Shown one piece after another: positions 4,429 to 31,959 of a stretch of DNA of 32,764 bases. A program made the translations under genes and the position numbers. This stretch comes from a virus. The notes beneath the pieces are model-generated. The model was not told the origin of the DNA. It was given only the letters and a program-made list of their open reading frames with translations, and did no database searches. The stretch lies in the IMG/VR virus record IMGVR_UViG_3300028819_000052, positions 1-32,764 of that record. One strand, written 5' to 3'. Every line of letters starts with the position of its first letter. Positions within the stretch are counted from its first letter, which is position 1.

Positions 4429-5645
4429 AATTTTCCAGCCCGATGCCATGCGTTAAACAGTTTCACCGTATACCACAGATCGGCTCCCCAGCTCACGTCG
4501 GGCGTGAACCCCTCCTTGCACCGCGCTTCGCGATCCGCGAGCGCCGCTTCGATGACCTGCGACGGAATCTTGCGCACACAACACATCCGCCAGGCCGCTC
4601 CGAACCCCGCCATGTCCTCCGGCCCCACGTGCGCCGCGATCCGCTTCATCAGCTCCGCTTCCTTCGAGCGTTGAAACGTTGAACGTTGAACCGTTTCCTC
4701 ACTCCCCGATTTGGGGAGCGCCGGTACCGCCGGTACGTTCAACGTTAAACGTTCAACGTTTAAACGTTCCTGCGGGGGAGGGGGTGTGGGGGAGGGGGGC
4801 GACGCGGCGCGGCCCGCGGCGGTCCGACCCCCGTCATTTTCGACCCTCGCCCCAATTTGGGGCGACCTTCGTGGCGCGGTGCCCGCCCCAATTTGGGGCG
4901 GGCCAACCGCGTCGGGCTGAAGAGATGGGAGAGCGACCCTTTGTTTGCCGGAGCGGCTCTGCCCTATTGCTTGGGCATCAGCCGTTTGTTCCATCATCTC
5001 GCCACATTCCGATGGTCGAGCAGGACATGGTGACGGTCCTTCCGTCCCCCGCATTTTCGGGTCGTCTCCCGGCGCCAGGAGGTCTGCTTCCCCCGGCATT
5101 TTTTCCGTGCGTTCCCCAAATTGGGGAACGGGAAAATAGCAGCTCGCCCCAATTTGGGGCGACGTCTGGTTCACCCCAATTTGGGGTGCCGCCCCAATTT
5201 GGGGCGAGAAGATTTTTTGATCGCGTTTGAGCTGGTTCAAATCCTCCTGAATATCCGCCTTCGGCAACACCACGATCCGCGCCGCAGCCAGCGCCAGCGC
5301 CTCGGGCAATCCGGGCGCCTCCGTGCTGATGTCCAGCCTGGATTGATCCGGCCCGCGCTCCCAGGCGGACTCCCACACCGGCCACGGCCGCATCGCCCCG
5401 CGCCACAACGCGAACGGCTGCACCAAGATTTTGATACCCTCATCGATCCGCTGCACCACCGCGGCCCGAATCCGCTCGAGATCATTGCAAGCGGCGGCCA
5501 CGTGCTGCTCGGGGATTCCGGCCCGCACAGCCCACACCAGACGCGATGCCGGGCCGGCATCGCGAAAGGCGGCCGTGACGAGTTTTGCGGCGCGAGGTTT
5601 GAGCGGAAAATTCAGGACCTTGGTGAATTCTGGCATTTCGGCCAT
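4425..5645 (-). CDS. Probable phage replication protein with origin-like iterons inside the gene
   Basis: This 406-residue protein has three zones. Residues 1-150 are helical with an Arg-rich basic character and a predicted ADIQEDLNQLKRDQK helix. Residues 150-310 are low-complexity and contain repeated PQIGA/PQFGE motifs encoded by palindromes, plus ERLNVERLTLNV-type stretches. Residues 320-406 are a second globular part (ELMKRIAAHVGPEDMAGFG, ending WYTVKLFNAWHRAGKL). I recognise no family. Its place after a DnaA-domain-IV-like gene, the globular-linker-globular layout and the palindromes in the linker resemble lambda O, whose gene contains the phage origin. The replication role is therefore an inference. 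It starts three bases after the upstream gene ends and overlaps the next start by ATGA. Confidence 0.55.
   Translation of the reverse strand: MAEMPEFTKVLNFPLKPRAAKLVTAAFRDAGPASRLVWAVRAGIPEQHVAAACNDLERIRAAVVQRIDEGIKILVQPFALWRGAMRPWPVWESAWERGPDQSRLDISTEAPGLPEALALAAARIVVLPKADIQEDLNQLKRDQKIFSPQIGAAPQIGVNQTSPQIGASCYFPVPQFGERTEKMPGEADLLAPGDDPKMRGTEGPSPCPARPSECGEMMEQTADAQAIGQSRSGKQRVALPSLQPDAVGPPQIGAGTAPRRSPQIGARVENDGGRTAAGRAASPPSPTPPPPQERLNVERLTLNVPAVPALPKSGSEETVQRSTFQRSKEAELMKRIAAHVGPEDMAGFGAAWRMCCVRKIPSQVIEAALADREARCKEGFTPDVSWGADLWYTVKLFNAWHRAGKL
4702..5206. repeat. Seven palindromic iterons; candidate replication origin
   Basis: Palindromes with core CCCCAATTTGGGG lie at 4702-4718, 4848-4864, 4882-4902, 5110-5130, 5145-5161, 5172-5188 and 5190-5206. 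Their arms are 6-8 bp (CGCCCC, CTCCCC, CACCCC, CGTTCCCC and others) around a five-base A+T core. Arm changes are compensated on both sides, which suggests selection for the palindrome and not only for the encoded PQIGA peptide. Six share one orientation of the asymmetric core and the 5110 copy is inverted. I noticed none outside this gene. An AACGTT-rich repeat lies at 4669-4770. The origin function is inferred from the clustering and the neighbouring DnaA-like gene. Confidence 0.55.
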
Positions 5646-5648
5646 AAA

Positions 5649-6182
5649 TCAGTGGATTCTACGTCCGGCTGTGCTACGCTTGCAGCGGTCTCCGAACAGA
5701 GTCCGCTGGGGCGTCCCGCCGGTCGCCTTCAGTTTTGGGGGTGGTGTATCCACCCCCATTTTTGTGATTGCATCCCGCGCGCGCCGGGCGCGCAACGCCC
5801 GCTCAGCGGCCTTGGCAATCTCCGGCTCCTCGGCAAACACCAGCACCCGCAACCAAGTGACCGGCAGCTCCTCCACACGCTCACACTCGCGGAGCCGCTC
5901 CACCGTGCTCGCGAATTTTGAGTCCGTATCGATCCGATCCTGGACCGCGCGAAACCCATGCCCCACCGTTCCATGATGGAGACCGAACAACCGCGCAATC
6001 CGCGTCAGACTCCAGCCACGGTCCCGAAGCAAAATGAACAACGTCCAGCGCGCATCCACCACCTCGGGGAACTTGCGCCGAAGAAAAAGCTGGGACGCTT
6101 GGAGACCGAAGGCATAGGCGACCCGCGATAACTGTTGCTGCGTTATCGCGTCGAGCGACAGGACTGGATTGCGCCGGTTCAC
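5649..6182 (-). CDS. DnaA domain IV-like DNA-binding protein
   Basis: The central part resembles the DNA-binding domain IV of the replication initiator DnaA. The segment RKFPEVVDARWTLFILLRDR is followed by SLTRIARLFG, HHGTVGHGFR and AVQDRIDTDSKF. This matches the DnaA pattern of a basic 'R-x-x-A-x-x-L' helix, then 'L-x-x-I-G-x-x-F-G-x-R-x-H-T-T-V', then 'K-I-x-x'. No AAA+ ATPase domain is present, so it would bind DnaA-box-like DNA without ATP-driven opening. The GTG at 6182 (177 residues) is preferred because the in-frame GTG at 6275 would have its N-terminus encoded by palindromic mini-repeats. It lies three bases upstream of the iteron-bearing gene. Confidence 0.6.
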   Translation of the reverse strand: MNRRNPVLSLDAITQQQLSRVAYAFGLQASQLFLRRKFPEVVDARWTLFILLRDRGWSLTRIARLFGLHHGTVGHGFRAVQDRIDTDSKFASTVERLRECERVEELPVTWLRVLVFAEEPEIAKAAERALRARRARDAITKMGVDTPPPKLKATGGTPQRTLFGDRCKRSTAGRRIH

Positions 6183-9275: not shown

Positions 9276-10622
9276 ATGAGCGTCATACCCATTTTACGAG
9301 CCCCGGGCCTGCGCATCAGCGTCTGCCCGAATCCATCGCGCAAAGGCGGCAAAATTTACGGCGGCTGGCAAGTGCGCGAATCCGTGCGCGGCAGTTCCAT
9401 CATACGCCGCACATTTTCAGCGGCCGCCACAGGCAAAGACCGCAAAGACGCGAAGGACGTGGCCCTCAAGTTCGCCCGGGACCGCGCGAAAGTTTTGATC
9501 GGGCAAGCCACACTGTTGCCCCGCGAAGACCTGTTGCGCTTCCGGGCCGCGCTGGTGAACCTATATGGAACCGGTGTGAACGTCGAACAAGCCACGGCGG
9601 AGTATGCCCTCGCCAAACGCGAGCTGGCCGGATTGCCGGCATCCCTCGTGGACGCCGCCCGCTTCTATCGCGCGCACCACCGCGGCGACTGCCAGAAAAC
9701 CGTCGCCCAAGTCGTGGAGGAACTCCTCGATCGGCGCCGCAAAGAGAATGCCAGCGCCGTCCACGTGCGCGACCTGGAAAACCGCCTCACCCGGTTCGCC
9801 GGCGATCTGCAATGTCCCATTAACGCGCTGAACGCCCCCGTGATCCAGACCTGGATCGATGGCCTGAAGGACCTGAGCAATCGGACGCTGAAAAATTACC
9901 TGGCAGCCATCAGCAACCTGGTTGGGTTCGCCAAAACGAAAAGCTATTTGCCGGCCGACTGGAGCGAACTGGACCGGCTCGACAGAATCAAAGTGGGTTC
10001 ACAACCCATCGAGATATTCACCCCCACAGAGATGCTGCACCTACTCCAGCATGCGAAAGACACCGTGCTGCCCGTATTGGTGCTGGGCGGCTTCGCGGGA
10101 TTGCGCCCCAGTGAAACCCTCCAAATGACGTGGGAAAGAATCGACTGGCAACAGAACAGTCTCATCGCCGACGGCAAGACCGGGCCGCGTCGAGTGCCGA
10201 TGGAACCGAACCTGCGCGCCTGGCTGGAGCCGTTGCGCGGCGCCGGCCCCATCGTGACCATCAGCGAAGCGGCGATCTCGAACCAGTTTACGCGGACCGT
10301 GACGCGCGCGAACAAAGCCCTCGCGCGCGAACGGATCAACCTGAACCTCGCGTGGAAACACAACGCGCCGCGCCATTCCTGCGTAAGCTACTGGTCGCGG
10401 ATCCATAAGAACCCTTATGAAGTCTCGTCCTGGACGGGCCACAGCGCAGCGACGATGAAAAAATACTATTGCAACCAGACCGTGACCGACGAAGCGGCGC
10501 GGGCCTGGTTCGCGATCATGCCGGAGACAAAAGCCGTGCAACTCTCACTTTTCACGGGACTCCAGACAACGGCTGGAGCCCCGGAAAGCTGTCCGGAATT
10601 TGTCCGGAAGGAGGCCTCGTGA
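9276..10622 (+). CDS. Tyrosine recombinase / phage integrase
   Basis: The 448-residue protein has an N-terminal arm-type region, a SAM-like core-binding domain (about residues 140-240, TVAQVVEELLDRRRKENASA, then NRTLKNYLAAISNLVGFAK) and a catalytic domain. Catalytic residues are visible: Arg in GGFAGLRPSETL, Lys in DGKTGPRRVP, the His/Arg region in WKHNAPRHSCVSYW, and GHSAATMKKYY with the nucleophilic Tyr. The box II His is shifted (NAPRHS), as in some divergent phage integrases. A purine-rich GCGGAG site precedes the ATG. A tRNA(Leu)-like 3' end starts 24 bases after the stop, which marks the attachment site this enzyme probably uses. It is not an integron integrase by layout. Confidence 0.9.
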   Translation: MSVIPILRAPGLRISVCPNPSRKGGKIYGGWQVRESVRGSSIIRRTFSAAATGKDRKDAKDVALKFARDRAKVLIGQATLLPREDLLRFRAALVNLYGTGVNVEQATAEYALAKRELAGLPASLVDAARFYRAHHRGDCQKTVAQVVEELLDRRRKENASAVHVRDLENRLTRFAGDLQCPINALNAPVIQTWIDGLKDLSNRTLKNYLAAISNLVGFAKTKSYLPADWSELDRLDRIKVGSQPIEIFTPTEMLHLLQHAKDTVLPVLVLGGFAGLRPSETLQMTWERIDWQQNSLIADGKTGPRRVPMEPNLRAWLEPLRGAGPIVTISEAAISNQFTRTVTRANKALARERINLNLAWKHNAPRHSCVSYWSRIHKNPYEVSSWTGHSAATMKKYYCNQTVTDEAARAWFAIMPETKAVQLSLFTGLQTTAGAPESCPEFVRKEAS

Positions 10623-15137: not shown

Positions 15138-15540
15138 ATCAGAAATCTGGCGCCAGGCGCTCCGTGTGGCGATCAAATGTGAAAACGCCAACGCGGTCGA
15201 AATTTCTACCGCAATGGAGGCGATCGGCAAACGTTCGCCGATTGTTGAAGTGCGGGTTGCCCGCGCTCTTAGCAAGGCGATGGCGTATGGCGGCATGGAT
15301 CGTCTCAGCGAGGACGAAAAACAACTACTGATCGAAACCGTGGAGGACCTCAACAACCCCGCTGGCCGTCTGCCGACGGGAGATACCCCCGCTGGCGGAC
15401 ACATTCACTTGCGCGTTACGATGGAACGCAAAAACCGCTACGTGCGCGCAGCCAGGAAACGCAAAATGAAACTGAGCGAATGGATGACGGAGACGTGCGA
15501 CAACGCTCGAAGTGAACCACGACGGACCACTGACCTATGA
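15130..15540 (+). CDS. Hypothetical protein, possible C-terminal ribbon-helix-helix
   Basis: The ATG at 15130 overlaps the previous gene by eight bases and gives 136 residues. The N-terminal half is helical (TKSEIWRQALRVAIKCENAN, then VRVARALSKAMAYGGMDRL). After a glycine/proline linker (PAGRLPTGDTPAGGH), IHLRVTMERKNRYVRAARKR and KMKLSEWMTETCDNA give strand-helix-helix as in ribbon-helix-helix proteins. A DNA-binding role is likely but inferred. The stop overlaps the next start as ATGA. Confidence 0.55.
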   Translation: MTKSEIWRQALRVAIKCENANAVEISTAMEAIGKRSPIVEVRVARALSKAMAYGGMDRLSEDEKQLLIETVEDLNNPAGRLPTGDTPAGGHIHLRVTMERKNRYVRAARKRKMKLSEWMTETCDNARSEPRRTTDL

Positions 15541-15803
15541 ATGACCCGAACCCTACGGCAAAACTCGCGGGCAATCCCGGCGTTGGTTCCAGTGAGATTG
15601 TTCGGCGGCGCCGGTCGCAAGGCGAACTGATCAATGGACTGAAGCAGTTCATGGCCGGCGAAACGTATCGCACATTGGATGCTATCGAGCAATCCCGGCT
15701 CAACCGCGTGCTCGATGCGATGACGCGAAAGGCTCGCCACGCAGGCCTGAAGCCGCCGACCAAGCTCAGCGACCGGAGGCGAAATGAGACACGAGATATT
15801 TGA
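15537..15803 (+). CDS. Hypothetical protein (88 residues), C-terminus running into a half attC
   Basis: The protein begins MNDPNPTAKLAGNPGVGSSE and has a basic helical core (LINGLKQFMAGETYRTLDAI, then SRLNRVLDAMTRKARHAG). The last residues (PPTKLSDRRRNETRDI) are encoded by a 20-bp stretch identical to the left half of the attC site after the next gene. It overlaps the following start by 20 bases. The protein end may therefore have been remodelled by recombination. The function is not recognised. Confidence 0.5.
   Translation: MNDPNPTAKLAGNPGVGSSEIVRRRRSQGELINGLKQFMAGETYRTLDAIEQSRLNRVLDAMTRKARHAGLKPPTKLSDRRRNETRDI
15757..15776 (+). repeat. Half attC (R''/L'' side only) at the left edge of the cassette array
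   Basis: The 20 bases CGACCAAGCTCAGCGACCGG are identical to 16023-16042 in the first full attC. No matching L'/R' half follows, so this is a truncated or recombined site. Confidence 0.55.
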
Positions 15804-16050
15804 TGAACGGGGCGCGTTGTCCTACAAAGTGAACGATGGACAACCGGAGAGCAAGCCTCCGGTTCGTCTGCAGCGCGTGGTTCTGCCGCAACCGGACGAA
15901 CCGTGTCCTCTGTGCGAAGCTAAGGGCCGTCGCATAATTCTGACTTTTGAATACGATCCGCAGTACATCGAAGTTGAGTGCTGTGATTGTCTGGGAACAG
16001 GACGTCGCCCGGTGCGGCAGAACGACCAAGCTCAGCGACCGGGACGCTGA
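15784..16050 (+). CDS. Cassette gene 1: zinc-finger protein (88 residues)
   Basis: The protein contains CPLCEAKGRR and CCDCLGTGRRP (about residues 41-75), two CxxC-type pairs with G-x-G as in DnaJ-type zinc fingers, so zinc binding is likely. The N-terminus (MRHEIFDERGALSYKVNDGQ) is unassigned. The stop lies inside the attC that follows, as is usual for integron cassette genes. A related zinc-binding segment occurs in many small phage proteins. The biological role is unknown. Confidence 0.55.
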   Translation: MRHEIFDERGALSYKVNDGQPESKPPVRLQRVVLPQPDEPCPLCEAKGRRIILTFEYDPQYIEVECCDCLGTGRRPVRQNDQAQRPGR

Positions 16051-16103
16051 GCTAAGCATTAAACCCGCGGCGAAACCCGGTTCGCTGCAGCGCATGGTTA
16101 GGA
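16017..16103 (+). other. Integron attC-like site 1
   Basis: R'' GCAGAAC (16017-16023), L'' GCTCAGCGA (16030-16038), inner stem CCGGG...CCCGG, L' TTCGCTGCAGCG (16081-16092) and R' GTTAGGA (16097-16103). L'' and L' pair with extra unpaired bases, the hallmark of attC. It lies at the end of one gene and five bases before the next ATG. Confidence 0.7.
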
Positions 16104-16107
16104 CATT

Positions 16108-16326
16108 ATGAAATCAAACTTCTCGCTCTGGGGACCGCAAGAGATCAATGGGGTCAGGCGGTGGGGTGTGAACGAAAAGCGACTCGGCGGAACCTATACA
16201 GCCGGGCCGCACAATGGTTTTGATAACCGGGCCGATGCGGTCCGACTGCTGGCGGAAAAACGGCAAGAGGAACGCGACCGAGAGGAAGAACTTGCATACT
16301 CAAGAGCCAATCGCGCGAGGTCCTAA
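16108..16326 (+). CDS. Cassette gene 2: small protein (72 residues)
   Basis: The protein reads MKSNFSLWGPQEINGVRRWG, then VNEKRLGGTYTAGPHNGFDN and a charged helix (LLAEKRQEERDREEELAYSR). It starts five bases after attC-like site 1 and stops at the R'' box of site 2, so it fills a single-gene cassette exactly. The first half is beta-rich. I recognise no family. Confidence 0.55.
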   Translation: MKSNFSLWGPQEINGVRRWGVNEKRLGGTYTAGPHNGFDNRADAVRLLAEKRQEERDREEELAYSRANRARS

Positions 16327-16427
16327 CGATAAAGCTGACCGACCCGGATGAGCGCCGCCCAAACTCTGCTATTTCCAGAAGCCGCTGACCGGCGCTCATC
16401 CGGGTTCGGTCCAGCGCCTTGTTCGGC
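16321..16427 (+). other. Integron attC-like site 2
   Basis: R'' TCCTAAC (16321-16327), L'' AGCTGACCGA, a perfect 16-bp stem (16342-16357 with 16390-16405, ACCCGGATGAGCGCCG and its complement), L' TTCGGTCCAGCG and R' GTTCGGC (16421-16427). This is the clearest of the four sites. Confidence 0.8.
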
Positions 16428-16431
16428 TTCT

Positions 16432-16941
16432 GTGCTGGACGCTTGCTGCGGGAGTCGGATGTTCTGGTTCGACCGCAAAGACCCGCGCGCGCTGTTCGTG
16501 GACATCCGCCGCGAAACCTATCTGGCCGCTGACTGCTCGGTGAAAAACGGTGAGCGTGAAATAGTCGTCAATCCCGACATCCTAGCCGATTTCACGGCGC
16601 TCCCGTTTCCAGACAATCACTTCTGGCACGTCATCTTCGACCCGCCGCACATCCAGAGAAACGGCGACACGAGCTGGATTCTCAAAAAATATGGAGTGCT
16701 CCGTGGAAACTGGCGCGAGATGATAAGCAAGGGCTTCGGTGAATGCTTCCGCGTCCTACGTCCGAACGGCACGCTTGTTTTCAAGTGGAACGAGGACGAG
16801 GTGAGCGTGAAAGAAATCCTCGCGCTGACTGCCGAAAAGCCGCTCTACGGCAGCCGCTACGGGAAGCACTTCAAATCACACTGGATCGTGTTCCAGAAGC
16901 CGAACGCAAAGCTCACCGACGCCGGGCCAGAGACGCTATGA
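16432..16941 (+). CDS. Cassette gene 3: SAM-dependent methyltransferase
   Basis: From the GTG at 16432 the protein has 169 residues and begins directly with VLDACCGSRMFWFDRKDPRA, the SAM-binding motif I region. Then come LFVDIRRETY, DFTALPFPDNHFWHVIFDPP (motif IV, DPPH) and FRVLRPNGTLVFKWNEDE. This is a class I methyltransferase, probably acting on DNA, RNA or a small molecule; the substrate is not clear. An in-frame ATG at 16348 lies inside the preceding attC and would add 28 residues encoded by it. The gene ends inside attC-like site 3. Confidence 0.75.
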   Translation: MLDACCGSRMFWFDRKDPRALFVDIRRETYLAADCSVKNGEREIVVNPDILADFTALPFPDNHFWHVIFDPPHIQRNGDTSWILKKYGVLRGNWREMISKGFGECFRVLRPNGTLVFKWNEDEVSVKEILALTAEKPLYGSRYGKHFKSHWIVFQKPNAKLTDAGPETL

Positions 16942-16990
16942 CTTCAACTCAAAACGCATCCCCGGCGTTCGGTGCAGCGCAATGTTCTAC
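16899..16990 (+). other. Integron attC-like site 3
   Basis: R'' GCCGAAC (16899-16905), L'' GCTCACCGA, stem CGCCGGG...CCCGGCG, L' TTCGGTGCAGCGC and R' GTTCTAC (16984-16990, imperfect). It overlaps the end of the methyltransferase gene and the start of the next frame. Confidence 0.7.
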
Positions 16991-17732
16991 CGCGCACATT
17001 GTCGCTCTCTCCGGCGGCAAGGACTCGACCGCTATGGCTCTCCGACTTGCTGAGTCTGAACCACGCGACTACAGCTACGTCGTGACGCCAACAGGCCAAG
17101 AACTGCCGGAAATGCAGGAGCATTGGAAGCGGCTGTCGTGTCTGCTTGGTAGGAAACTCGTGAAACTCCAAGGGCCAACGATGGAAGAACTGGTGATGAA
17201 ATGGAACGCGCTTCCGAACTGGCGAATGCGTTGGTGTACCAAGGAGATCAAAATTAAGCCCTTCATGTCGTATGTCTCGGCGATGGTGCCAGCGGTCGTT
17301 TACATTGGATTGCGCGCCGATGAAGTCGGGGAAGACGCACGAGAAGGAACAAACTGGAAGGGTGTCGAGGGAGTAACGCAAGACTCCCCTCTCGTCCGAT
17401 GGGGCTGGGGTATCTCTCGCGTGATCCAATATCTCAGTGACTGCGGCGTTGCCATTCCAGAGCGCACCGATTGCGATATGTGCTTTTTCCAACGAGTGTC
17501 CGAATGGTGGCGGCTCTGGCATCTGCACCGGGAGAGATTCGAGAAAGCGGCAGAATGGGAAACAATAACCGGCCACACGTTGCGAACCGAGAAGCCTGGT
17601 CCGTGGCCAACCAGCCTGCGCGAACTTGGAAAACGATTTGAGGCGGGATACGTCCCCAAGGGCGCAGACCAGCTAAACATGCGATTCGACATTGCGGAGC
17701 GGAAAACCATGTGTGCCTGGTGTGCGCGGTAG
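16938..17732 (+). CDS. Cassette gene 4: PAPS reductase-like (PP-loop) protein
   Basis: The protein carries the PP-loop motif SGGKDST in HIVALSGGKDSTAMALRLAE, then YVVTPTGQELPEMQEHW, WCTKEIKIKP, a YIGLRADE segment and a C-terminal cysteine-rich part (CDMCFFQ and CAWCAR). This matches the phosphoadenosine phosphosulfate reductase/DndC-like ATP-pyrophosphatase superfamily; cysteines may bind metal. Phage members of this family are common and their substrate is unsettled; DNA or tRNA sulfur chemistry is possible. The ATG at 16938 overlaps the previous stop as ATGA and lies in attC site 3, so about 20 residues are attC-encoded; the homologous part starts near HIVAL. The stop lies in site 4. Confidence 0.75.
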   Translation: MTSTQNASPAFGAAQCSTAHIVALSGGKDSTAMALRLAESEPRDYSYVVTPTGQELPEMQEHWKRLSCLLGRKLVKLQGPTMEELVMKWNALPNWRMRWCTKEIKIKPFMSYVSAMVPAVVYIGLRADEVGEDAREGTNWKGVEGVTQDSPLVRWGWGISRVIQYLSDCGVAIPERTDCDMCFFQRVSEWWRLWHLHRERFEKAAEWETITGHTLRTEKPGPWPTSLRELGKRFEAGYVPKGADQLNMRFDIAERKTMCAWCAR

Positions 17733-17819
17733 AACGCTCCGGATCAGCGACCCGGCGCATCGCGGCCATGACTTCGACCGAGACGGCTCCGCCGGGTTCG
17801 CTGCATCCGGTGGTTGGGC
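17729..17819 (+). other. Integron attC-like site 4
   Basis: R'' GTAGAAC (17729-17735), L'' GATCAGCGA, stem CCCGGCG...CGCCGGG, L' TTCGCTGCATC and a canonical R' GTTGGGC (17813-17819). The 91-bp site starts at the stop codon of the previous gene; the next ATG follows 24 bases after it. Confidence 0.75.
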
Positions 17820-17843
17820 GGACAACATTGCAAAGACTGACCT

Positions 17844-18269
17844 ATGCCTTACGAGGGTAACGCAAGCGACGGGAAACATTACTGGCTCACACCTCCGGAT
17901 CTCATGGAGATGTTGCGAGCGGAGTTCGCATTCGACTTTGACCCGTGCCCGTATCCCAGGCCGGACGGATTCGACGGGCTGACTGTCGAATGGGGGCAAT
18001 CAAATTTCGTGAACCCGCCTTTCAAGGGGCCAACCGCATGGGTGCGGAAAGCCATTGCCGAGCGGCAGAAAGGCAAGCGCGTCGTGTTCGTGTTTCCGGT
18101 GGACAAATGGGTGCTGATGATGCTCGAAGCGGGCGCGAGGGTGCGCAATCTCCGGGACGTGCGTTGGTGCTCAATTGAAGATGGGCAACCGGGAAAAGGA
18201 ACTGGGCGACATATCGCTTGCTTCGTTCTGGATCCAGCAAGCGAGAGTCCGCCCAACACTAGAATATGA
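17844..18269 (+). CDS. Cassette gene 5: phage Dam-like DNA N6-adenine methyltransferase
   Basis: The 141-residue protein matches the short phage DNA N-6-adenine methyltransferase family (Pfam Dam-type PF05869): HYWLTPPDLMEMLRAEFAFD, FDPCPYP, NFVNPPFKGPTAWVRKAI (NPPF catalytic motif) and RVVFVFPVDKW. It would methylate adenines in DNA, commonly to protect phage DNA or alter regulation. It starts 24 bases after attC site 4. Its last residues (SPPNTRI) come from a GCCCAAC R''-like box, so the attC expected after it is present only as a remnant. Confidence 0.8.
   Translation: MPYEGNASDGKHYWLTPPDLMEMLRAEFAFDFDPCPYPRPDGFDGLTVEWGQSNFVNPPFKGPTAWVRKAIAERQKGKRVVFVFPVDKWVLMMLEAGARVRNLRDVRWCSIEDGQPGKGTGRHIACFVLDPASESPPNTRI
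18251..18257 (+). other. attC R'' remnant at the right edge of the cassette array
   Basis: GCCCAAC fits the R'' consensus (RYYYAAC), but no L'', L' or R' follows, so the array ends here. Confidence 0.4.
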
Positions 18270-24154: not shown

Positions 24155-24925
24155 TCACGTCTTCGCCCAGGCCCAGCCGTCGTTGAGCGCGAGCAGGGTG
24201 ATGTCGGTTGTGCCGCTCTCGGGATCTTCCGGGTCCGTGGGACGGGTGATGCCCAGGCCGGAACAACTCATCGCGTAAATGATGGTCGGGCTGATGGTCT
24301 CGGTGGTCACCGGGCCGTCTTCGGGCTCGTCCAGGATCGCCGGGACAAAACGCGGGATGATCGTTTGGTTCTGCGTGGTCCAGTTGCTGTCGTCCGGGTC
24401 GGTCTGATCGGTCGCGATTCGGAACGTGGCGCTCTTGTATTCGAAGCTGAGAAATTTAGCGTCGCTGCTGAACGTCGCGCCGTCCCAACTCTCGACCACG
24501 ATATCGTAGGTGATCTCGTCCCCGGTGCCGATGTTGCCTGGGTTGTCTGCGTTTAGCACGGCGCGGTCGAACGGGCTTTGGCGCAGGTTAAAGGGTTTGG
24601 CAATGTAAACGTCGCTCGCGCCGATGGCGTTCTCGATGGTCGGATCTTCCGGGTCGCTGGTATCAATGGATACGCCGAGCGTGCGGCAGATGAAGTAATC
24701 GCCGGCGCTGGCGTCGGTGAGGAGGTATTGTTTGACGCGCGAGCCGGCTTCGCTGGATCCGCTTGACAGCGCTTCCACCATCATGCCGCGCGCGGTGCGC
24801 GTGACGCGGATGCCGGGGCCGGCGAACACTTCGTGCTGCCCGCGCGCGAGCCGGTCCCAGACCCATTGATAAAAACGGGCGCGGGCGCTGGAGCCGATGG
24901 GGCGGTTGGGGATGAAGCCAATCAC
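24155..24925 (-). CDS. Hypothetical tail-region protein (256 residues)
   Basis: A GTG start at 24925 gives MIGFIPNRPIGSSARARFYQ, WVWDRLARGQHEVFAGPGIR and a long acidic beta-rich body (TDASAGDYFICRTLGVSIDT, YDIVVESWDGATFSSDAKFL). The N-terminal basic helix and a repeated DPEDP motif are visible. I recognise no family. It lies between the tape-measure-side genes and the LamG-like protein, as expected for a baseplate or tail-tip component. The gap upstream contains host-type CACGAATGGACACTAATGG repeats (24945-25055). Confidence 0.55.
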   Translation of the reverse strand: MIGFIPNRPIGSSARARFYQWVWDRLARGQHEVFAGPGIRVTRTARGMMVEALSSGSSEAGSRVKQYLLTDASAGDYFICRTLGVSIDTSDPEDPTIENAIGASDVYIAKPFNLRQSPFDRAVLNADNPGNIGTGDEITYDIVVESWDGATFSSDAKFLSFEYKSATFRIATDQTDPDDSNWTTQNQTIIPRFVPAILDEPEDGPVTTETISPTIIYAMSCSGLGITRPTDPEDPESGTTDITLLALNDGWAWAKT

Positions 24926-25054
24926 ACTTCAGTGGAGTAACAACCACGAATGGACACTAATGGACACAAATAGGGGACCGGCAGGACCTGCAGGGACGCC
25001 CGCGCTCCCAGATTCGGACATTCGTGTTTATTTGTGTTCATTCGTGGTTGGAAA

Positions 25055-25849
25055 TCATTCGGGCAGGGCGGTGATCTGGCCTGGGTACAGAATGGGCGGC
25101 CAGGAACCGAGGCGCCACTCGATGGAAATCTCCGTGCGATTGTTGCCGATGAACGTGCGGCCCGTCCCGATGCGGCGCCAGCCCCACTTCGCCAACCTCC
25201 CGTCATTCGCGCCATTGACCGCGATGTCGCCCATCAAATCCGCCATGAGTGAATCGGGCGAAACGCCCGGGACCGCGCCGGCGTAAAGAAATGGCACGCT
25301 GATCGCCGCGCGCGCGGAATAAAAGGTGATCTCGAAACTAGTCGTGCCATGGATCATCAGGTCGAGCAAAACCTTTTCATTGCTGTCGGGCGGGAACAAA
25401 CCGTCCTCGGCGGTGAAATCCGCGTAGGTCTGCGCCAGGCCATCGAGCAGCGGATCTTCGTCCACGCCTTCGGTCCGGCTCTTGGTAATCATTTTGATGG
25501 CCGCGTCGATCTGGGCCACCATGACCGGCCCAAGCGCGATCGCCGCCGGGCTTTTACGGATATCTTCCTGATAATCGTTGGTGAACAGTTGCCATGTGGA
25601 CGTCGTTTTTTCCGGGATGCCCGCGCCGGTTGCGGCGCCGGTGGTGGTCGCAATGAGCCGGGATTTGCAGGCGTTCGCGGTCCAATCCACCTGCATCCCG
25701 GCGGCGATGCTCTGTTGCGCGAGACCAGCGAGGTTGTCGCCGGCGGATTCGTATTCCTGCGTGACGGTGTAGCCCTTGGTCGGATCGTAGCGGGTGCTCA
25801 GCTTAGTCCGGACGGGTTGCAGCGTGCCGTTGATTCTCGGTTGGGGCAT
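25055..25849 (-). CDS. Hypothetical tail protein (264 residues), probably distal-tail region
   Basis: The protein begins MPQPRINGTLQPVRTKLSTR, contains beta-rich segments (YDPTKGYTVTQEYESAGDNL) and ends with NNRTEISIEWRLGSWPPILY. It lies immediately after the tape measure gene in transcription order, where siphophages encode distal tail proteins. The position suggests a Dit-like or tail-tip role, but no motif proves it. A hairpin element of about 106 bp separates it from the tape measure gene. Confidence 0.5.
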   Translation of the reverse strand: MPQPRINGTLQPVRTKLSTRYDPTKGYTVTQEYESAGDNLAGLAQQSIAAGMQVDWTANACKSRLIATTTGAATGAGIPEKTTSTWQLFTNDYQEDIRKSPAAIALGPVMVAQIDAAIKMITKSRTEGVDEDPLLDGLAQTYADFTAEDGLFPPDSNEKVLLDLMIHGTTSFEITFYSARAAISVPFLYAGAVPGVSPDSLMADLMGDIAVNGANDGRLAKWGWRRIGTGRTFIGNNRTEISIEWRLGSWPPILYPGQITALPE

Positions 25850-25900
25850 TTGCTAGTTGGTGTTCAGGGGTTGATGGCCTGGAAACCGGATCGAAGTTTT

Positions 25901-26006
25901 ATGGAGTGCGGTGGCAAGCGTAGCGGCGACACCGCTTTGGCGCTGCGCGCGGGCGGGCCTGAGCAAAAGCGGTGTCGCCGCTGCGCTCTGCCACCGCACT
26001 CCAAAA
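25901..26006. repeat. GGAGTGCGGTGGC hairpin element, copy 1
   Basis: This imperfect inverted repeat of about 106 bp has ends TGGAGTGCGGTGGC and GCCACCGCACTCCA and inner arms ACACCGCTTT/AAAGCGGTGT. Copies 2-5 lie at 29083-29185, 30573-30672, 31376-31468 and 31856-31959, all between late genes. It has no gene of its own. Confidence 0.8.
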
Positions 26007-26013
26007 GGGGACT

Positions 26014-29082: not shown

Positions 29083-29185
29083 TGGAGTGCGGTGGCAGAG
29101 CGCAGCGGCGACACCGCTTTGGCTCAGGCCTAATGACCACCTCCAAAAAGCGGCGTGGCGCTTCGCTTCCCGCCGCACTCCAAAA
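29083..29185. repeat. GGAGTGCGGTGGC hairpin element, copy 2
   Basis: This is an inverted repeat of about 103 bp of the family described at 25901, between two tail genes. Confidence 0.8.
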
Positions 29186-29196
29186 GATCTCAACCA

Positions 29197-30572: not shown

Positions 30573-30672
30573 ATGGAGTGCGGTGGCAGAGCGTAGCGGC
30601 GACACCGCTTTGGCAATGCGCTCGGGCCTGAGCAAAAGCGGCGTGGCGCTACGCTTCCCGCCGCACTCCATA
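30573..30672. repeat. GGAGTGCGGTGGC hairpin element, copy 3
   Basis: This is an inverted repeat of about 100 bp of the family described at 25901. It ends just before the stop of the next gene. Confidence 0.8.
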
Positions 30673-30674
30673 AG

Positions 30675-31375: not shown

Positions 31376-31468
31376 TTTTGGAGTGCGGTGGCAAGCGTAG
31401 CGCGACACCGCTTTTCGCGAGCTCAAGCCAAAGCGGTGTCGCCGCTGCGCTCTGCCACCGCACTCCAT
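31376..31468. repeat. GGAGTGCGGTGGC hairpin element, copy 4
   Basis: This is an inverted repeat of about 93 bp of the family described at 25901. It exactly fills the gap between two neck-region genes. Confidence 0.8.
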
Positions 31469-31472
31469 AGAA

Positions 31473-31832: not shown

Positions 31833-31855
31833 TCTGGGAATGGCCGCGCGTCAAT

Positions 31856-31959
31856 ATGGAGTGCGGCGGGAAGCGTAGCGCCACGCCGCTTTGGATCGCG
31901 TCACGCTGGGGAAATGCAAAAGCGGTGTCGCCGCTGCGCTCTGCCACCGCACTCCAAAA
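31856..31959. repeat. GGAGTGCGGTGGC hairpin element, copy 5
   Basis: This is an inverted repeat of about 104 bp of the family described at 25901. After it, a direct GGCCCGACCGGCTAGGTC repeat lies at about 32003-32039. Confidence 0.8.

Follow-up and report, generated by a model that had tools for sequence, protein, structure and literature searches.

In the textbook integron, a gene and its attC site lie in one orientation within the cassette, and new genes arrive next to the promoter at attI. Integrons are usually viewed as bacterial platforms that phages have taken up accidentally. Both integrons and clusters of attC sites lacking integron integrases (CALINs) have already been reported in phages, with DNA methyltransferases as frequent cargo of the phage arrays and with attCs that could be used by IntI1 in an assay (Qi et al. 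2023, PMC9892861). In the 'reverse' integrons of Treponema, intI is transcribed toward attI and the cassettes run away from it (PMC3607928, PMC4909258). Here we describe a cassette array at positions 15,755–18,257 of a 32,764-base linear fragment (hereafter, the window), which constitutes the IMG/VR virus record IMGVR_UViG_3300028819_000052. Comparison of this region with its relatives makes it highly probable that it belongs to a phage-specific type of integron with inverse cassettes, and that it either has lost its integrase gene intI or has it outside the 32.8-kb fragment.

A chain of attC sites in a phage genome

The phage nature of the record, proposed in an initial annotation made from the letters of the window, is borne out by domain and PHROG matches to a terminase small subunit, ParB, a phage integrase and a tape measure protein. 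The same annotation held that a phage-type integrase is the only recombinase in view, and indeed a search with the intI model TIGR02249 gave no match anywhere in the record. We looked for attC sites over the whole window, on both strands and with filters off, by means of a covariance model (R1) trained on 35 attCs of bacterial genome contigs, with the window sequences excluded. The four full attC sites claimed initially were recovered at the same positions, with scores of 68.4, 60.0, 54.7 and 45.4 bits (E 1e-11 to 3e-7). All four carry R″/R′ boxes, paired L″/L′ boxes and an unpaired C in L′, and their stems still pair although the loop sequences diverge. Across the 35 model sequences, the named structure pairs 81% of the cells, as against 28–46% when it is slid, and the covariation score is 0.354 versus 0.14 in shuffles; the strict layout scan that we used alongside R1 yields ~2 chance matches per 33 kb of Markov-resampled sequence. 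Isolated as single strands, the sites give more stable folds than shuffled sequences (z −2.8 to −7.5), the minimum free energy structure of site 1 being a competing hairpin pair and not the attC fold. A second short inverted repeat in this site (GCTCAGCG...CGCTGAGC, 16030–16053) competes with the attC fold. A scan of the window at Rfam gathering thresholds returned no match, so Rfam holds no ready-made attC model.

The four sites form one chain, in which each terminus is the exact reverse complement of the next over 7, 11, 14 and 10 nt, the last value belonging to the last cassette; the inverted repeats at the unit ends are TTAGGAC, TTCGGCTTCTG, TTCTACCGCGCACA and TTGGGCGGAC, each with its complement at the next R″. 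The repeat at 15757, initially taken for a half-site and entertained as a half-site duplication, turned out with R1 to be the 5′ arm of a degenerate full attC (attC0), the R′ box of which, GTTCTGCCGC, is complementary to the R″ box of site 1, GCGGCAGAAC, over 10 nt. At its 3′ end, the array stops in a free R″ box with no further attC, the point at which attI begins in relatives that bear intI. The flank beyond this box was tried as attI and rejected: its score with an attI position weight matrix is reached by 15.7% of AAC sites, and the likeness to attI is not significant. Just left of the array, a weak R1 match (15498–15606; 25.2 bits) may be the remnant of an older attC. The attCs of this cassette array are genuine, and they form a cluster without intI nearby, in which five units stand head to tail and all cassette genes are on the + strand. 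The initial annotation was right about the shared strand; the sites do not lie exactly between the genes, as it had it, since cassette genes end and start inside them.

Orientation of cassette genes and position of intI

The comparison set consisted of ~100 related virus contigs, and an IntI alignment fetched 80 viral loci. Gene orientation was scored by codon log-odds on non-redundant cassettes, which replaced a test based on the length of open reading frames that proved ambiguous in short GC-rich cassettes. In the window and the other phage arrays, the extrahelical base is in L′ on the gene strand, whereas in bacterial arrays and in a class 1 integron used as a control (plasmid L319) it is on the opposite strand; in this control, the unpaired base sits on the arm adjoining R″, read along the gene. 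The genes of the window are therefore inverted relative to attC, and the array thus departs from the usual cassette architecture. The inverse arrangement prevails in phage arrays both with intI (40 inverse, 0 canonical and 9 undecided cassettes, the intI strand being the coding strand) and without it (15, 1 and 11, respectively), as opposed to bacterial arrays of the same attC type, in which 54 cassettes are canonical, 3 inverse and 38 undecided (Fisher's test of phage versus bacterial arrays, 4e-24 with intI and 9e-12 without). The reading of the region as a CALIN in a phage, put forward initially, stands insofar as there is an attC cluster without intI, but the cassettes are not canonical and the extra base is on the L′ arm of the gene strand.

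Only sites that had a TAATCA-like core and were no more than a few hundred bases away from intI were accepted as attI; several automatically called array ends were internal attCs missed by the strict scan. Among the IntI-fetched viral loci with arrays, the array is left of intI and ends in an attI-like core, (T)AATCACTG↓TT or GTCTAATGATTG↓TT, mostly 15–250 bases from intI. In G005, G007 and G010, the integrase gene stands directly past the final R″ box; the end that encodes the N-terminus adjoins the array, and the gene is co-directional with the cassette genes. An intI adjoining attI at the 3′ end of the array was found in L238/G010, L239 and L315, but not in the window record. The TIGR02249 cut-off is passed by the IntIs of G010, G005, L239, L271 and L300. 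TerL, for which only two families were tested, is encoded by 14 intI contigs, including G056, G010, G078 and G085, all with inverse arrays, and in G010 the integron has a phage integrase gene on one flank and genes for terminase, protease, capsid and RecT on the other. A phage-type array at positions 24463–25163 of G020 has a strong attI core at its end, without intI in the 57-kb record. In the published genome of Virus Rctr41k (KX853513.1), the annotated 'integrase-like protein' at 4680–5678 qualifies as an IntI by the TIGR02249 cut-off. The genes upstream of it share its strand, and the strict scan found no attC in this virus.

Breakpoints in related contigs

Natural rearrangements among relatives reveal what moves. 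Two related viral contigs, L271 and L283, whose intI regions are 81% identical, share a block of 1,011 bases at 99.8%, which extends from the AAC of one R″ to the AAC of another, with the upstream attC included and the downstream attC left out. In L270, which is 99.5% identical to L271, position 2857 of the latter is joined directly to 5480, and in L266 the L271 positions 4267 and 5480 as well as 5996 and 7797 (= attI) are joined. All junctions in L270 and L266 are at R″ A↓AC, either R″-to-R″ or R″-to-attI. Because the breakpoints fall exactly at R″ with the upstream attC included, the mobile unit, as judged from this group of contigs, is an attC plus the gene behind it. The order within the unit is attC first and gene second, not the other way round, a point that the initial annotation missed.

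attC sites as a probable source of start codons

In phage arrays, an ATG inside the preceding attC opens the coding frame at 31 of the 49 junctions with a clear frame, compared to 8 and 7 of the 49 for the other two frames (p 1e-8), and compared to 5 of 38 canonical junctions in bacteria. The window has such in-frame ATGs in attC0 (gene 1), attC2 (gene 3) and attC3 (gene 4). Past the R′ box of attC0, gene 1 lacks an ATG of its own. Frame analysis of gene 4 detected no start codon from the crossover to the conserved N-terminus, which implies translation from the ATG inside attC3. In a related phage, G013, the frame of a Lar-like gene opens at an ATG located in the loop of the attC. The attC of phage arrays would thus be a recombination hairpin and, usually, also the supplier of the start codon.

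The same locus in related phages

The cassette methyltransferase has 23 relatives in viral contigs and none in the 84,980 bacterial genomes searched. Its 484-bp segment from R′ to R″ recurs with identical ends and length in the arrays of G001 and L015/G010. In G001, which encodes TerL, capsid and DnaB, the methyltransferase is part of an array of 11 strictly scored attCs and is 88% identical in DNA to the unit of the window; for this pair, the identity is 0.71 for the upstream and 0.75 for the downstream attC, values that leave undecided which of the two moves along with it, whereas the L271/L283 pair decides the matter.

The position of the array is conserved beyond its content. The window and the phage contig G018 have in common INT, g26, TF (tail fibre), TMP (tape measure), g35, g40 and g42, and the circular order of the structural genes agrees between them; where the window has its array, G018 carries seven attCs with different cassettes. 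The homologue of g24, the gene that flanks the window array on the right, has a site-4-type attC on its immediate left in both G017 and G013; these near copies of attC4, directly 5′ of the g24-like genes, are 86% (G013) and 78% (G017) identical to it in DNA. The same genomic place therefore holds differing cassettes in G018, G017 and G013, and the scenario that the initial annotation had set against its own reading, namely conserved non-attC spacers in relatives with a fixed gene order, fails on the different cassettes of G018. In G013 (L051/L025, 9683–10165), one cassette is truncated, and its Lar-like restriction-alleviation gene forms an in-frame fusion with the 3′ half of the g24 homologue; genes that resemble MuA and MuB, judging from their sequence, are located nearby.

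Host range and bacterial integrons

A scan of bacterial genomes with the attC pattern gave matches mostly in Verrucomicrobiota. An IntI over the cut-off is encoded in 10 of 20 such Verrucomicrobiota genomes, and relatives of the tape measure protein in 10 of 388 genomes of this phylum. The hosts of these phages are probably Verrucomicrobiota. One of the three inverse bacterial cassettes is in the chromosomal integron of a Verrucomicrobiales metagenome-assembled genome (L134, minus strand, 430–1309): this phage-type cassette contains a DPPY methyltransferase that starts with MSAAETILSPEAV inside an attC 79% identical to attC2 of the window (blastn), which suggests exchange between phage and host arrays.

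Cassette genes and flanking features

The coordinates of the attCs, cassette genes and flanking genes are collected in Table 1. The zinc-finger, methyltransferase, PAPS reductase-like and Dam-like cargo listed in the initial annotation found a match in each case, that of the zinc-ribbon protein being weak. Taken at face value, the combination of DNA methyltransferases with PAPS-reductase-like and Lar/Q-like proteins suggests a swappable module for anti-restriction and host takeover. Outside the array, a repeat of ~105 bases is present in five copies between the tail-region genes of the window (25900–26007, 29083–29186, 30574–30674, 31376–31471 and 31855–31959); the copies are about 80–85% alike and occur in both orientations, and the repeat recurs in several Verrucomicrobiota genomes, with weaker partial copies in other phyla too.

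Table 1 Features of the cassette array and its surroundings in the window
Feature	Coordinates	Strand	Evidence
Tyrosine integrase, phage-type, not IntI	9276..10622	+	PF00589, phrog_1; without NCBIfam TIGR02249 match
attC0, degenerate fifth attC	15755..15886	+	R1 24.7 bits, E 0.0035; ATG of first cassette gene inside (15784)
Cassette gene 1, small Cys-rich zinc-ribbon protein, anti-termination Q-like / Lar-like (weak)	15784..16050	+	PHROG 6060 E 0.0025; PF14354 E 0.012, below cut-off
attC1	16017..16103	+	R1 60.0 bits
Cassette gene 2, unknown 72-aa protein	16108..16326	+	Open reading frame; coding score 7.7 sense versus 4.4 antisense
attC2	16321..16427	+	R1 45.4 bits; ATG 16348 in frame with methyltransferase
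Cassette gene 3, phage DNA methyltransferase	16432..16941	+	phrog_954 E 1e-68
attC3	16899..16990	+	R1 68.4 bits; ATG 16941 inside
Cassette gene 4, PAPS-reductase-like	16941..17732	+	PF01507 E 5e-6; phrog_424 E 1e-33
attC4, GGAT.CAGCGA type	17729..17819	+	R1 54.7 bits
Cassette gene 5, Dam-like DNA N6-adenine methyltransferase	17844..18269	+	PF05869 E 5e-8; phrog_111 E 9e-17
Terminal free R″ box GTCCGCCCAAC	18247..18257	+	Inverted repeat of last cassette's other end, 10-nt match
g24, right flanking phage gene	18266..18625	+	tblastn: homologues right of attC arrays in G017 and G013

Origin of the array

Could the array be an ordinary CALIN, that is, a piece of a Verrucomicrobiota chromosomal integron array with canonical cassettes that was captured by a phage, comparable to those of Qi et al. 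(2023)? The attC type is frequent in Verrucomicrobiota integrons, the record has no intI and phage CALINs are already known (PMC9892861), all of which would fit such a capture. Nevertheless, we regard this origin as unlikely, given that cassettes are canonical in bacterial arrays with this attC type (54:3) and inverse in phage arrays, that the nearest phage integrons from the literature that were tested (Vibrio p16, Shewanella M16-3 and TJE1) have canonical cassettes, that the cassette methyltransferase was not found in the bacterial genomes searched, and that the array occupies a fixed phage locus in relatives, with phage contigs having an intI of their own. Since comparable phage contigs carry intI at the array end, we interpret the array as a phage integron in degenerate form, and not as a bacterial CALIN caught by chance.

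Two further explanations concern the sites themselves. The inverse reading could be an artefact of labelling, with the extrahelical bases on the other arm, the crossover still at R′ and the units canonical gene–attC cassettes, and the extrahelical base is indeed C on the scanned strand, versus G in class 1. This is very unlikely in view of the location of intI and attI at the 3′ end of the arrays, the near-identical contigs that break at R″ with the upstream attC included, and the bacterial arrays that have the same attC type and the same C and are nonetheless canonical. That the sites are conserved intergenic phage hairpins, such as terminators or REP-like elements, and not recombination sites, would agree with their hairpin folds and their position between genes, but is hardly credible beside R1 scores of 45–68 bits, the exact inverted repeats at unit ends and the presence of other cassettes at the locus in G018, G017 and G013.

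Several points weigh against placing the array among phage integrons with inverse cassettes. Without intI and a significant attI, the window array may itself be immobile. The breakpoints come from contigs of the L271 group and not from the group of the window, and in these contigs phage-like replication genes are present, while no terminase was found. Gene orientation is drawn from codon statistics and a few recognised domains, with 20 phage cassettes ambiguous, and the bacterial loci used for comparison were chosen by one attC pattern.

A proposed phage integron lineage and its relation to known systems

These observations likely reflect a widespread and separate lineage of phage integrons, in which attC comes before the gene and doubles as a translation start, IntI is sometimes provided in trans, and cassettes are traded among phages and occasionally with host integrons. 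IntI would cut the folded attC of the gene-coding strand at R″ (A↓AC, which is G↓TT on the other strand), acting in cis in the relatives and in trans in the phage of the window. As the window has neither intI nor a significant attI, both the activity of the array in this phage and the supply of IntI in trans are putative. Excision, insertion or reordering of units would take place at the R″ points, beside an attI at the 3′ terminus of the array, the side on which relatives have intI. With attC ahead of the gene, the array would read along the phage operon, and the attC loop would usually provide the ATG from which the ribosome reads through L′ and R′ into the gene.

If this is correct, a phage lineage with its own intI, attI and flipped cassettes at a fixed genomic place would possess a native gene-swapping tool, through which cassettes could also pass between phages and bacteria; the rule that ties the orientation of gene and attC and sets new genes beside a promoter at attI would be broken, and attC would gain a second job as a translation start. 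The strand that is recombined, the expression of cassettes in phages and the action of IntI in trans during infection all become testable. We found no description of phage integrons with inverse cassettes in the open-access papers searched, which limits but does not settle the question of novelty.

Among the described systems, the phage CALINs of Qi et al. (2023, PMC9892861) are alike in having attC arrays within phage genomes and methyltransferase cargo. The published arrays of Vibrio p16, Shewanella M16-3 and TJE1 are canonical, unlike the window, where genes are inverted and attC precedes the gene; it should be noted that the strict scan did not resolve the arrays of P12002L and M16-3, and the call for M16-3 comes from the published annotation only. 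Sedentary chromosomal integrons of Verrucomicrobiota have the same attC type as the window (GCT.CASCGA with an extra base), but differ from it by their canonical cassettes. The class 1 integron shares the R/L box layout of attC and the extrahelical base, relative to which its genes are on the opposite strand compared with the window. Finally, the 'reverse' integrons of Treponema resemble the phage relatives in that intI and the cassette genes are co-directional (PMC3607928, PMC4909258). In the phages, however, the N-terminus of IntI is encoded at attI and the cassette genes point toward attI, so that, in contrast to Treponema, the genes are flipped within the cassettes.

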